Part shown: in pieces, positions 15,414 through 51,758 of the stretch | How positions within the stretch are numbered: position 1 is the first letter of the stretch | How the letters are laid out: every line of letters starts with the position of its first letter | NCBI RefSeq assembly: GCF_014083985.1 | Contig: NZ_CP046907.1 | Location: forward strand, 2,336,001-2,400,000 | Origin: Streptomyces sp. SCUT-3 | GTDB lineage: Bacteria > Actinomycetota > Actinomycetes > Streptomycetales > Streptomycetaceae | Length of the DNA: 64,000 bases | Direction: 5' to 3' | Translations under genes and position numbers: made by a program | Notes under the pieces: model-generated | Database searches by the model: none | Told to the model about the DNA's origin: nothing | The model's input: the letters and a program-made list of their open reading frames with translations, nothing else

Positions 15414-15716
15414 CGTGGTCTCCCCGTGTCGTGCCGGTGTCCTCCCCCGGCCCCGTGCATGATCCTCCGGCCGGCCGTGCGCCCGGCCGCCCGCCAGCGT
15501 GCCACACGGACCGGCACCGCGGCAGGGAGCGCGTACGGGGCCCATCGCCGTTCGGGCGTCGCACAGTTGACGGAATGACCGTTTTTGTCCGGAGGGATTC
15601 GCAACAATGTCCGGTCGCGACTTCACATGACGATCACGGTTTGATTACTGTCGCCCTCGTGCAGGCCGCACCGCTACCGGCGGACGGCGCCGGAACGGTC
15701 TGCCCCGTCGAGTCCG

Positions 15717-15845
15717 GACGTGTCCGGAGCCGGGGACCCACTTGTGTTCCGGGGTGAATCGGGACGGCCCTTCCGGGCCGGACCGTAGGGCGACCTTCCG
15801 ACAGCCCGAACCCGACAGCTAACCCGGTAGGCGGTCCACGGAAGG
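15717..15845 (+). promoter_or_regulatory. c-di-AMP (ydaO/yuaA) riboswitch
   Basis: The leader of the NlpC/P60 gene contains the conserved blocks of the actinobacterial ydaO riboswitch, in order: GCCGGGGACCCA, GTTCCGGGGTGAATC, GTAGGGCGACCTTCC, CCCGAACCCGACAGCTAAC and CGGTAGGCGGT. A CGTG/CACG pair could close P1 (about 15719 and 15837). The aptamer ends at the GGAAGGAG ribosome site for TTG 15854. Bound c-di-AMP turns these switches off in known cases, lowering expression of cell-wall hydrolases. Recognition is by the conserved blocks only; I could not run a covariance model. Confidence 0.92.
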
Positions 15846-15853
15846 AGCGCCTG

Positions 15854-23103: not shown

Positions 23104-24687
23104 TCACTCCCACTCGATGGTGCCCGGGGGCTTGCTCGTCACGTCGAGGACGACGCGGTTGACGTCGGCGACCTCGTTGGTGATGCGGGTGGAGATCCTC
23201 GCCAGGACGTCGTACGGCAGGCGGCTCCAGTCCGCGGTCATGGCGTCCTCGGAGGAGACCGGGCGCAGCACGATCGGGTGGCCGTAGGTGCGGCCGTCGC
23301 CCTGGACGCCGACGCTGCGGACGTCGGCGAGGAGTACGACCGGGCACTGCCAGATGTCGCGGTCCAGGCCGGCCGCGGTCAGCTCCTGGCGGGCGATGGC
23401 GTCGGCCTCGCGCAGCAGGTCCAGGCGCTCCCTGGTGACCTCGCCGACGATGCGGATGCCCAGGCCGGGGCCGGGGAACGGCTGCCGGTGGACGATCTCG
23501 TCGGGCAGGCCGAGCTCGGCGCCGACCATCCGCACCTCGTCCTTGAAGAGGCGGCGCAGCGGCTCGACGAGCCGGAACTCCAGGTCCTCGGGGAGCCCGC
23601 CCACGTTGTGGTGGGACTTGATGTTGGCGGTGCCGGTGCCGCCGCCGGACTCGACGACGTCCGGGTAGAGGGTGCCCTGGACGAGGAACTCGACGCTCTC
23701 GCCGTGCTCGCCGGCCTCGGCGACGATCTCGGCCGCGGCCTGCTCGAAGACGCGGATGAACTCGCGGCCGATGATCTTGCGCTTCTGCTCCGGGTCGGAG
23801 ACCCCGGCCAGCGCCTCCAGGAACTGCTCCTCGGCGTCGACGACCTTCAGCTGGACGCCGGTGGCCGCGACGAAGTCCTTCTCGACCTGCTCGGACTCGC
23901 CCTTGCGCATCAGGCCGTGGTCGACGTAGACGCAGGTCAGCTGCGAGCCGATGGCGCGCTGGACGAGGGCGGCGGCGACCGCGGAGTCCACGCCGCCGGA
24001 CAGGCCGCAGACGGCCCGCTTGGAACCGACCTGCTCGCGGATCGCGGCGATCGACTCCTCCACGACGTTGGTGGTGGTCCAGTCCGGCTTCAGGCCGGCG
24101 CCGCGGTAGAGGAAGTGCTCCAGCAGCATCTGGCCGTGCGTGGAGTGCATGACCTCGGGGTGGTGCTGCACCCCGTAGAGCTTCTTCTCGTCGTTCTCGA
24201 AGGCGGCGACGGGGGTGCCGGGCGTGGTGGCGGTGACCGTGAAGCCCTCCGGCGCCTCGGAGACGGAGTCGCCGTGCGACATCCACACCGACTGGTTCTC
24301 CGGGGTGCCCTCGAAGAGGGTGGAGCCCGGCCGGGTGACCTTCAGCTCGGTGCCGCCGTACTCGCGGGTGCCGGTGTGCGCGACGGTGCCGCCGAGCGCG
24401 CGGGCCATCGCCTGGAAGCCGTAGCAGATGCCGAAGACCGGGACGCCGGCCTCGAAGAGCTCCGGGCCCACGTTGGGCGCGTCCTCCGCGTAGACGGAGG
24501 AGGGGCCGCCGGAGAGCACGATGGCCTTGGGGTTCTTGGCGAGCATCTCGGACACCGGCATGGTGTGCGGGACGATCTCGCTGTAGACCCGCGCCTCGCG
24601 CACGCGGCGGGCGATGAGCTGTGCGTACTGTGCACCGAAGTCGACGACCAGCACGGTGTCGGGTGCGGCGTGGGGCGCTGATGCCAC
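23104..24687 (-). CDS. guaA: GMP synthase (glutamine-hydrolysing)
   Basis: About 527 residues from GTG 24687, with GGAAGG seven bases upstream; an ATG nine codons upstream (24714) is an alternative. The protein converts XMP, ATP and glutamine to GMP. The class I glutamine amidotransferase domain has the nucleophile in [10 protein letters not shown] and the His/Glu pair in [10 protein letters not shown]. The ATP-pyrophosphatase domain has [14 protein letters not shown] (about residue 225), and the C-terminal dimerisation part includes [16 protein letters not shown] and ends KPPGTIEWE. Length is typical for actinobacterial GuaA. A strong hairpin ends the transcript. Confidence 0.98.
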
Positions 24688-24816
24688 AGGGCGGCCTTCC
24701 GGCGGTTGCTGCAAAGGGGTCGTGTCCGATTCTACCGTTGCGGCCCGCGCCCCGGCCCCGCCCCGTTCGTCTCACCATCCGGTCCCGGTGCGACGCCGCC
24801 CGGAGGCGGGTCCATA

Positions 24817-24894
24817 ATGGACGGCATGTTCAGCGCATTCGGCATCTTTACCTATGGCACCGGCTGGTCCGGCTGCCATCGCGCTGCTGCCTGA
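24817..24894 (+). CDS. Aromatic-residue leader peptide of chorismate mutase
   Basis: 25 codons from ATG 24817 (GGAGG at 24802), or 22 from ATG 24826. The peptide reads MDGMFSAFGIFTYGTG then WSGCHRAAA: three Phe, one Tyr and one Trp, mostly within twelve codons. It sits 24 bases before a 32-base GC palindrome and 116 bases before chorismate mutase, the enzyme committing chorismate to Phe and Tyr. That layout is a classical transcription attenuator, where ribosome stalling at Phe/Tyr codons controls read-through. GGTCCGG at 24866-24872 can pair with CCGGGCC inside the left arm of the terminator, giving an antiterminator. Structure is read from sequence; function is inferred. Confidence 0.75.
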   Translation: MDGMFSAFGIFTYGTGWSGCHRAAA

Positions 24895-24917
24895 ACACGA
24901 CAGAGCAGACCTCGCAC

Positions 24918-24949
24918 AGGCGCCCCGGGCCGTACGGCCCGGGGCGCCT
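24918..24949 (+). terminator. Attenuator terminator before chorismate mutase
   Basis: A perfect palindrome from AGGCGCCCCGGGCC to GGCCCGGGGCGCCT with a GTAC centre, followed by GTCGTTT. It is 61 bases ahead of the chorismate mutase start and can act as segment 3:4 of an attenuator. Confidence 0.8.
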
Positions 24950-25009
24950 GTCGTTTCCCGGACCTGCGGACCCGTCGGCGGCCGACCCACGGACAGCAGG
25001 GAGACGACG

Positions 25010-25387
25010 ATGAACACCCGCCTCGAGGACAGGACCACCGCCGCCGCGAACGGCACGGACGCGAGCGGCACGGACACCACCGGCAGCGCCGCGAACGGCA
25101 CGGAGGCGAACGGCACCGGCACGGCGGCCGCGGGCACGGGCGGCACCGAGGCGGTGATCGGCAGCGCCAGGGAACGCATCGACTCCCTGGACGAACGGAT
25201 CATCGCGCTGATGCAGGAGAGGATGTCGGTGTCGCAGTCGATCCAGCGGGCACGGATGGCCTCCGGCGGCCGCCGGGTCGCGCTCTCCCGCGAGATGGAG
25301 ATCATCTCCCGCTACAGCGAGGCACTGGGGCGCCCCGGCACCACCGTGGCCATGACGCTGCTGGAGCTGTGCCGCGGGCAGGTCTGA
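25010..25387 (+). CDS. Chorismate mutase (AroQ type)
   Basis: 125 residues from ATG 25010, with AGGGAG upstream. A 50-residue leader rich in Gly, Thr, Ala and Asn (repeated NGT, GTE) precedes the all-helical AroQ core: RERIDSLDERIIALMQERMS (first helix with the conserved R, D and R), SIQRARMASGGRRVALSREM, then a helix ending LLELCRGQV. It rearranges chorismate to prephenate in Phe and Tyr biosynthesis, in the cytosol. The active-site Arg in helix 1, the Arg-Lys-type SIQRAR and the Arg/Glu of LSREMEI are present. Expression is probably controlled by the attenuator at 24817-24949. It is a single-gene transcript. Confidence 0.92.
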   Translation: MNTRLEDRTTAAANGTDASGTDTTGSAANGTEANGTGTAAAGTGGTEAVIGSARERIDSLDERIIALMQERMSVSQSIQRARMASGGRRVALSREMEIISRYSEALGRPGTTVAMTLLELCRGQV

Positions 25388-26163
25388 CCGCCCTCCCCCC
25401 CCTCGCGCCCGCAGTCCCTCGGAACCCCGGGCCCGCAGAACCCCGGGGCCCGAGGGCGCGGCGGGCCCGGCCGGCCCGCGGGCACGGAGGCCTCCCACGG
25501 TCGCGGGCCGGCCGCATTCCGGATCGCCCGTTCGCGCCCGGGCTTCACCCGTACGGTGCGTGACCGGCCCTCGCGAGAATTCGTTGAACCCGTCGTCCGC
25601 ACCAATCCAGGGGCGGGTCACCCCCGTCCCAGGACGGGTTTCGCACAACCACGCGTGGGCAACGCCGGTCCGCCGGGGCGATGAGGCGTGCAGAAATGCA
25701 CATCGTGGGACCTCGCTCCGGCGCTGTGACCGATCCGCAGGGGACAGCGGCCAGGTCACGACTGAAGGGACGGCCGGCTCCGGGGACGCCCGGAACCGGC
25801 CGTCCGGCAGCACACCGCCGCCTCCGCACGGCCGTGGCACTGCGGGTGCCACTGACAGACACCGACCGGACACGTCGCCGGCCACTCCCGCTCCCGCCTC
25901 CGTCGGCCCGCACTCCCCTGGATCCGGCGATTCCGGGGATGTGATTCATGCCACAAAGAATTCACCGGAAGCATGGGCAACCGATCGCAAGTGCGGCTTT
26001 TGCCCCCTGCGTGGGATCTTGCCGTGCTGTCAGCGCGCGGTTAAGGCCCTCGCGGAACCTCCGCGGCCTCTCTAGTCTCCTGACCGTCGCACCGCACCCC
26101 ACGGCGGCAGCGCTCAATTCTTTTTCTTTTCTTCCAGTTCACCACTGGATACGAGGGGTCTTC
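25388..26163. other. Long gene-free region before the LAETG surface gene
   Basis: 776 bases. The first 120 are GC-rich inverted-repeat fragments around CCCCGGGGCCCGAGG, probably the chorismate mutase terminator. From about 25560 the base composition is more even than the neighbouring genes. A TAGTCT box near 26072 could be a -10 element for the surface protein. A run rich in T and C (TTCTTTTTCTTTTCTTCC, about 26119) lies just before its ribosome site. No protein is convincing in any frame. Confidence 0.4.
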
Positions 26164-27204
26164 ATGAAGCTTCGCCGTGCCATTGCCACGGTCGCAGCGA
26201 CCGCAGCCATCGCGCCCGCTGCCCTGCTGGCCGCCCCGTCCGCCTTCGCGGAGGACGGCGGGACGACCGACAGCGCCGTCGTCACCCAGCCCGCGGACAA
26301 CCCGGGCGAAGAGCCGCCCGCCGCCGAGGAGCCGCCCGCCGCCGAGGAGCCCCCGGCCGAGGAGCCCCCGGCCGCCGAGGAGCCCCCCGCTGCCGAGGAG
26401 CCGCCCGCCGAGGAGCCCCCGGCCGAGGAGGAGCCGCCCGCCGAGGAGCCCCCCGCCGAGGAGGAGCCCCCGGCCGAGGAGCCTCCCGCCGAGGAGGAGC
26501 CGCCCGCCGAGGAGCCCGGTGAGGGCGACGAGGAGTGCGTCGTGGACGCCGACCTCGAGATCGGGCTCTCCGGCCTGCCCTCGAAGGTCGTCGCCGGCTC
26601 CGGCTGGGTCAACTTCGACCTGAACATCTCCAACAACGGCGACACCGACTTCGACGACGTCGCCCCGTGGCTGTACGTCGACGGCGTCGACCACGACTAC
26701 GCGAGCAACCTGCTCGTCCTCCAGGCCCGCGACTCGGCCGGCGGCGAGTGGATCACCGTGGCCGACGAGGTCGGCGCCGGCGGCTACTTCACCTCGTTCT
26801 CCCTGAAGGCCGGCCAGAGCGTCTCCTACGACCTGCGCCTGAAGGTGGACGCCAAGGCCCCGGCCGGCACCGCGTTCGCCGTGGCCGTCGGCGACTACTA
26901 CAACGAGGACGGCACCTGCGGTTACACGGGTGACGACGACTACGTCCCGTACTTCTTCGAGGTGCTGGCCTCCGGCACCGAGCCGGGCGGCCCGGTCGAC
27001 GACTCGAAGCCGCAGACCGGCGGCAAGAAGCCGGTCGAGGTCGACACCGACAAGGTGAAGGAGACCAAGGTCACCGGCGAGCTCGCCGAGACCGGCTCCT
27101 CCTCCGCGCTGCCGACCATCGCCACCATCGGCGGTGTCGCGATGGCGCTCGGCGCCGGCGCCGTCTTCGTGGTGCGCCGCCGCAAGGCCGGCACCGCCGC
27201 CTGA
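26164..27204 (+). CDS. LAETG-anchored surface protein with Pro-Glu repeats
   Basis: 346 residues from ATG 26164. A Sec signal ends near APSAFAED. Residues about 50-120 are a repetitive Pro/Glu stalk of alternating EEPPAEE, AAEEPPA and EEEPPAEE units. Then a compact beta-strand-rich domain follows (about residues 125-280; LEIGLSGLPSKVVAGSGWVN, two cysteines), then a Lys/Thr linker and the C-terminal anchor: LAETG, a hydrophobic span and RRRKAGTAA. LAxTG is the form used by class E sortases of Streptomyces. The repeat is encoded by near-identical codons (26310-26518). The protein's role is unknown; a wall-bound stalked domain is inferred. Confidence 0.9.
   Translation: MKLRRAIATVAATAAIAPAALLAAPSAFAEDGGTTDSAVVTQPADNPGEEPPAAEEPPAAEEPPAEEPPAAEEPPAAEEPPAEEPPAEEEPPAEEPPAEEEPPAEEPPAEEEPPAEEPGEGDEECVVDADLEIGLSGLPSKVVAGSGWVNFDLNISNNGDTDFDDVAPWLYVDGVDHDYASNLLVLQARDSAGGEWITVADEVGAGGYFTSFSLKAGQSVSYDLRLKVDAKAPAGTAFAVAVGDYYNEDGTCGYTGDDDYVPYFFEVLASGTEPGGPVDDSKPQTGGKKPVEVDTDKVKETKVTGELAETGSSSALPTIATIGGVAMALGAGAVFVVRRRKAGTAA
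26310..26518 (+). repeat. In-frame Pro-Glu codon repeat
   Basis: Units of GAGGAGCCCCCGGCC and GAGGAGCCGCCCGCC with small changes repeat about 13 times, encoding EEPPA/EEPPAEE. The high identity suggests slippage-driven length change. Confidence 0.85.
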
Positions 27205-51489: not shown

Positions 51490-51506
51490 ATGGCGAGGCC
51501 TCTCTC

Positions 51507-51640
51507 CTCATCTTCCCCGGACGTATTTCGCCACAGGACGGACTTGGCACCTTCCCCGCCGGGGCCTCGCGTCGCTGCGAGTGCCGGCTGGAGGGTTGCC
51601 GGGGCTTCAACGGGCCGTTCCCTCTGCCCCTCTGGATGAG
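51507..51640 (-). promoter_or_regulatory. SAM-I (S-box) riboswitch before thrC
   Basis: Read leftward: P1 arm CTCATC, then CCAGAGGGGCAGAGGGA, ACGGCCCGTTGAAGCCCC, GGCAACCCTCC, later AAGGTGCCAAGTCC, and closing arm GATGAG (51512-51507). These are the S-box core blocks in correct order and spacing (134 nt). The closing arm abuts GGAGAGAGG, the thrC ribosome site, which suggests translational control. Confidence 0.95.
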
Positions 51641-51758
51641 CGGTATGGCACCTGGCGCGGAAAAGCGCGCACAGGGCGTTTGTCGAGGCCGGACAACGCC
51701 GAGATGCGAAGGTCGTGCCTCGTGTCCAAGACTGTAACCGACGGCCCGCAGGCGGGTC

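Follow-up and report, generated by a model that had tools for sequence, protein, structure and literature searches.

The window analysed is a stretch of 64,000 nucleotides from Streptomyces sp. SCUT-3 (contig NZ_CP046907.1, positions 2,336,001 to 2,400,000), and all coordinates below are counted from its first base. Between guaA and a gene for a chorismate mutase (CM) lies a short open reading frame (ORF) followed by two RNA hairpins. The features are as follows.

23104-24714, minus strand: guaA, the gene upstream of the leader region
24813-24818, plus strand: -10 element CATAAT, from the sequence, with a predicted transcript start at or adjacent to the leader ATG
24826-24894, plus strand: leader peptide ORF MFSAFGIFTYGTGWSGCHRAAA, 22 codons, from the sequence and homologous ORFs in relatives
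24847-24855, plus strand: likely control codons TTT (Phe), ACC, and TAT (Tyr), from their conservation in family leaders
24854-24863, plus strand: segment 1, 5' arm of a pre-emptor hairpin (ATGGCACCGG), from the MFE fold and a swap test
24866-24879, plus strand: segment 2, 3' arm of the pre-emptor hairpin and antiterminator strand (GGTCCGGCTGCCAT), from folding
24916-24931, plus strand: segment 3, left arm of the terminator (ACAGGCGCCCCGGGCC), from folding; predicted to pair with segment 2 if segment 1 is masked
24936-24951, plus strand: segment 4, right arm of the terminator, then a weak T run, GTCGTTTCC, from sequence and folding
24999-25004, plus strand: Shine-Dalgarno sequence GGGAGA of the CM gene, from the sequence
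25010-25387, plus strand: stand-alone CM of the AroQ-delta type, Rv0948c ortholog, from Pfam, NCBIfam, and PDB matches

The protein encoded at 25010-25387 matches Pfam CM_2 (1.7e-8) and NCBIfam PRK07857 (1.3e-33), with PRK07857 and TIGR01808 both above their cut-offs. It also matches PDB 2qbv, the intracellular CM Rv0948c of M. tuberculosis (5.3e-16). These matches bear out the sequence-only reading, made earlier from this DNA, that the downstream gene is a CM. The same genome has a second CM gene of a different clade, TIGR01795 (L001, at G000:C1:566374-566610). No convincing leader was found upstream of this second gene or of the genome's two type II DAHP synthase genes.

The leader ORF runs from the ATG at 24826-24828 to the TGA stop at 24892-24894, and it encodes Phe in three places (codons 2, 5, and 8), followed by Tyr (codon 10) and Trp (codon 14). 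The sequence-only reading had described a frame of 22 to 25 codons with three Phe, one Tyr, and one Trp codon; the 22-codon form stands, and we reject the 25-codon form, since its ATG at 24817 shares bases with the -10 element CATAAT, making it an unlikely start, and the conserved start is at 24826. A CATACT or CATAAT box is equally spaced from the ATG in nearly all homologs. This spacing implies that the leader transcript would itself be leaderless, with the start position that we infer at the ATG or next to it.

The same leader, with core codons, hairpin region, and terminator, is present at each of the 38 CM loci that were retrieved first, conservation that excludes chance. A covariance model built from 30 of these 38 loci finds the leader in 130 of 133 Streptomycetaceae genomes (best E below 1e-12; counted from the table). 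Of the remaining three genomes, two (G115 and G173) lack this CM ortholog, and the third (G219) has its CM gene at a contig end, which cuts the hit. When 22 genomes that lack an Rv0948c-type CM or match it only weakly were searched with the model, no leader was found above 37 bits; a strongly scoring CM_2 gene is present in 22/22 sampled relatives of this kind. The leader therefore tracks the CM gene in both presence and absence, and it is a genuine, family-wide candidate for an attenuator as judged by sequence comparison. Weak reverse-strand matches of the model at the palindrome were discarded, as the palindrome explains them, and four matches from outside the order that have no F/Y frame (L097, L098, L112, and L113) were set aside as chance matches to terminators.

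Codons were recounted in 98 unique family leaders without requiring TTT. The Phe position is TTT in 96 and TTC in 2, and the Tyr position is TAT in 97 and CAC in 1. The conserved core is thus Phe-x-Tyr-Gly in rare codons: TTT accounts for 6 of the 303 Phe codons in window genes (about 2%), and TAT for 1 of the 236 Tyr codons (about 0.4%). The residue between Phe and Tyr differs (Thr, Ser, Gly, or Phe). The single leader in which Tyr is changed to His (L127) retains Phe, suggesting that Phe is the more important signal. The sensed amino acid is probably Phe first and Tyr second. For TAT, part of the conservation may come from RNA pairing in the hairpin formed by segments 1 and 2 (hairpin 1:2); TTT is left unpaired in the fold predicted for the window leader.

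Trp, which the sequence-only reading had named beside Phe and Tyr, is rejected as a sensed residue, since TGG is not conserved; most homologs have CCC or another codon in its place, and in the window it forms part of the RNA loop and of segment 2. The expectation that aromatic codons and both hairpins would be conserved in relatives was checked and held: Phe-x-Tyr, hairpin 1:2, and the stop position are kept, with Trp as the exception.

In leaders of several species (L034, L037, L040, L044, and L025), a 1-nt insertion after the core alters the remaining peptide, and despite this the stop codon is 42-57 nt from TTT, mostly 45. Thus, the C-terminal peptide is free to vary, and the point at which the ribosome ends is not. 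This bears on the suggestion that a nascent peptide arrests the ribosome in response to a signal other than aminoacyl-tRNA. In its favour are the high conservation of the FTYG core and the existence of ligand-sensing leader peptides of similar size. However, the frame can shift past the core, and the residues before it are very variable (MLTHPTFLFTYG, MQNAQWFSYG, MSSRARRFSYG, MLANRRFFYG, and MFELPVTTSFWFGHG), so we consider arrest of this kind most unlikely.

A conserved RNA bound by a protein or small molecule, like a riboswitch, with the ORF merely incidental, would account for the conservation of TTTACCTATGGC as nucleotides, synonymous positions included, across the family. Beyond the family, however, the core varies in codon units. 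A neighbouring family within the order has other codons in the middle (TTT-AGC-TAT, TTT-GGC-TAT, or TTT-TTC-TAT), as expected if conservation acts on the Phe and Tyr codons as units, and TTT-TAC-TAC is also seen outside the family. Furthermore, the start, frame, and stop position of the leader are kept, the conservation of TAT may be due in part to pairing in hairpin 1:2, and no Rfam family matches over the leader at gathering score. We regard a riboswitch-like element as very unlikely.

The 134-nt leader folds at -73.1 kcal/mol, with z = -5.55 relative to shuffled sequences, and the fold consists of the terminator stem and a hairpin into which the Tyr codon partly extends. Hairpin 1:2, which overlaps the control codons, is present in the MFE structure of all 101 leaders tested. 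In a swap test with 14 representatives, its arms fit their own partners with p of about 5e-5, a value in which relatedness is not fully corrected. Compensatory changes are seen in several leaders: TAT/GCCAT to TAC/GCCGT (L095), TGGCC/GGCCA (L106), ATGGCTA/TAGCCAT (L110 and L111), and CCACGG/CCGTGG in the leader with the Tyr-to-His change (L127). In one leader (L116), the arm is wholly rebuilt.

Segments 3 and 4 make up the terminator stem, a GC-rich inverted repeat of 16 bp without mismatches (24916-24931 with 24936-24951), confirming the 32-base palindrome reported from the sequence, and it is conserved, with one pair covarying as GC, AU, and GU. A strict terminator scan found none, which is explained by the weak U-tract; the T run, GTCGTTTCC, is short. 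Pairing of segment 2 with segment 3 is possible in all leaders. It is better than in swapped pairs for 25 representatives (p = 0.0036, with relatedness not fully corrected); within the family alone, the test is not significant (p = 0.17), and in clades such as L118-L129 the pairing is poorer than in swapped sequences.

The stability of the GC-rich stem, and the weak opposite-strand matches of the model at the palindrome, would also fit an ordinary constitutive terminator or an sRNA gene that works independently of translation. Against this are the conserved ORF with its rare aromatic codons, the coevolution of the pre-emptor hairpin, and the loss of the leader along with the CM gene, and together they leave this explanation extremely improbable.

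Since the terminator, at about -42 kcal/mol, greatly exceeds the antiterminator in stability, the switch has to work kinetically. A ribosome covers about 15 nt past the first base of the P-site codon. With the Tyr codon in the A site, coverage would extend to about 24865, so that segment 1 is wholly covered and GGTCCGG (24866-24872) stays accessible. When the RNA up to the terminator loop is folded with a mask to 24862, an 8-bp antiterminator forms and the fold has -31.7 kcal/mol; a stricter mask to 24868 gives weaker pairing, at -24.2. The pairing of GGTCCGG with CCGGGCC of the left arm, as the sequence-only reading had it, is thus formed in the fold once the upstream arm is masked.

We think it very probable that transcription is attenuated here by a ribosome-mediated mechanism of the classical pheL/trpL type, and that CM is most likely switched on when Phe, and perhaps Tyr, runs short. 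In the proposed mechanism, the leaderless transcript would be translated at once. If charged tRNA-Phe and tRNA-Tyr are ample, the ribosome would pass TTT-ACC-TAT and reach the stop; without translation, hairpin 1:2 would form. In either case, segment 3 would be free to pair with segment 4, and transcription would stop near 24955. If Phe or Tyr is short, the ribosome would stall at TTT or TAT, covering segment 1. Segment 2 (GGTCCGG...) would then pair with segment 3, blocking the terminator, and the CM gene would be transcribed. Sequence and comparison establish the ORF, its Phe-x-Tyr codons, hairpin 1:2, the terminator stem, the fixed stop position, and the association with the CM gene; the transcription start, the stalling, and the efficiency of termination are the steps of this mechanism that we infer.

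Similar leaders are found in other actinobacterial families. F/Y leaders also precede CM in the neighbouring family of the same order, and one is found upstream of an Rv0948c-type CM in each of two further families of the class (MSDRRSYFYYGTGSPAAVGRA in L095 and MLATVSFFYGHRDPVSVTAG in L096). In one more family, the gene downstream of such leaders is instead a type I DAHP synthase, at 21 of the 26 loci examined. The aromatic leaders of that family (MQRNFWRFYGYRP...ALR; MRTAFWFWYGDGP...), with GC-rich stems, are those at L134-L149, L151, L153, L157, L158, and L162; there are also single similar cases (L094 and L100). By analogy, the DAHP synthase leaders are probably the counterpart of C. glutamicum aroR. 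It is conceivable, and in our judgment somewhat unlikely, that one ancestral Phe-x-Tyr module with rare TTT and TAT codons spread through the Actinomycetes and became attached either to an Rv0948c-type CM or to DAHP synthase, with different families gating the aromatic pathway at different steps. In Streptomyces, the CM linked to the attenuator would then be an isozyme induced by starvation, alongside a CM that lacks such a leader.

The pheL-pheA attenuator of E. coli senses Phe and controls a CM-prephenate dehydratase fusion, and its leader contains many Phe codons. The Streptomyces leader resembles it in having Phe codons, in the predicted competition between hairpins, and in its likely control of CM activity. 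However, the gene here is a stand-alone AroQ-delta CM, the leader ORF is predicted to be leaderless, and there is one core Phe-x-Tyr. The aroR leader of C. glutamicum (Phe-Tyr-Phe), which precedes aroF, is reported to respond to Phe and not to Tyr limitation (review PMC11802643, describing Neshat et al. 2014). It is an actinobacterial attenuator of the aromatic pathway with Phe and Tyr codons, as the Streptomyces leader very probably is, although it controls DAHP synthase, whereas the Streptomyces leader precedes CM. Given pheL-pheA and aroR, a Phe/Tyr leader before CM is less unusual than had been supposed. The results support the earlier interpretation as right in kind, wrong on Trp, and slightly overstated as to rarity.

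Actinobacterial attenuators are known for Trp, Leu, Ile/Val, and others (PMC1262725, PMC8079986, PMC5784534, PMC13236596). The trpL, leuL, and ilvL leaders of Streptomyces (PMC8079986, PMC1262725) and ilvB1 of M. tuberculosis (PMC13236596) are likewise short ORFs that lie before the structural gene and contain codons of its end product, and several are leaderless. All of these serve other amino acids and genes; among the listed Streptomyces leaders (trpL, leuL, ilvL, and related ones), none is a Phe/Tyr leader, and none precedes CM. Two reports count against reading the present leader as an attenuator: a list of eight attenuators in S. lividans omits the CM leader (PMC8079986), and codon replacement in a similar leader, that of S. 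coelicolor ilvB, was without effect (PMC1262725). A literature search, with subscription papers largely outside its range, found no Phe/Tyr leader before a Streptomyces CM. Thus, this kind of attenuator is well known, and its Phe/Tyr form at the Streptomyces CM is apparently undescribed. The leader would offer a Phe/Tyr sensor, simple and testable, within the core metabolism of the leading genus of antibiotic producers. Many natural products of Streptomyces draw on aromatic precursors, and removal of the terminator might raise the flux from chorismate to Phe and Tyr.

Downstream of the CM gene, a noncoding stretch of about 290 bases (25519-25806) separates it from the next plus-strand gene. 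The stretch is 67-85% identical in most of the relatives compared, and no credible Rfam match was found for it in the window and eight relatives (E up to 0.01). One possibility is a regulatory RNA; another is the 5' UTR of the downstream surface-protein gene. The ORF that follows, at 25948-27204, is the next after CM; its product has no Pfam match and is likely secreted, carrying numerous EEPPA repeats and, at the C terminus, a sortase-like signal, LAETG. Elsewhere in the window, a c-di-AMP (ydaO) riboswitch (15696-15848, plus strand) and a SAM riboswitch (51505-51642, minus strand) are detected at Rfam gathering score.
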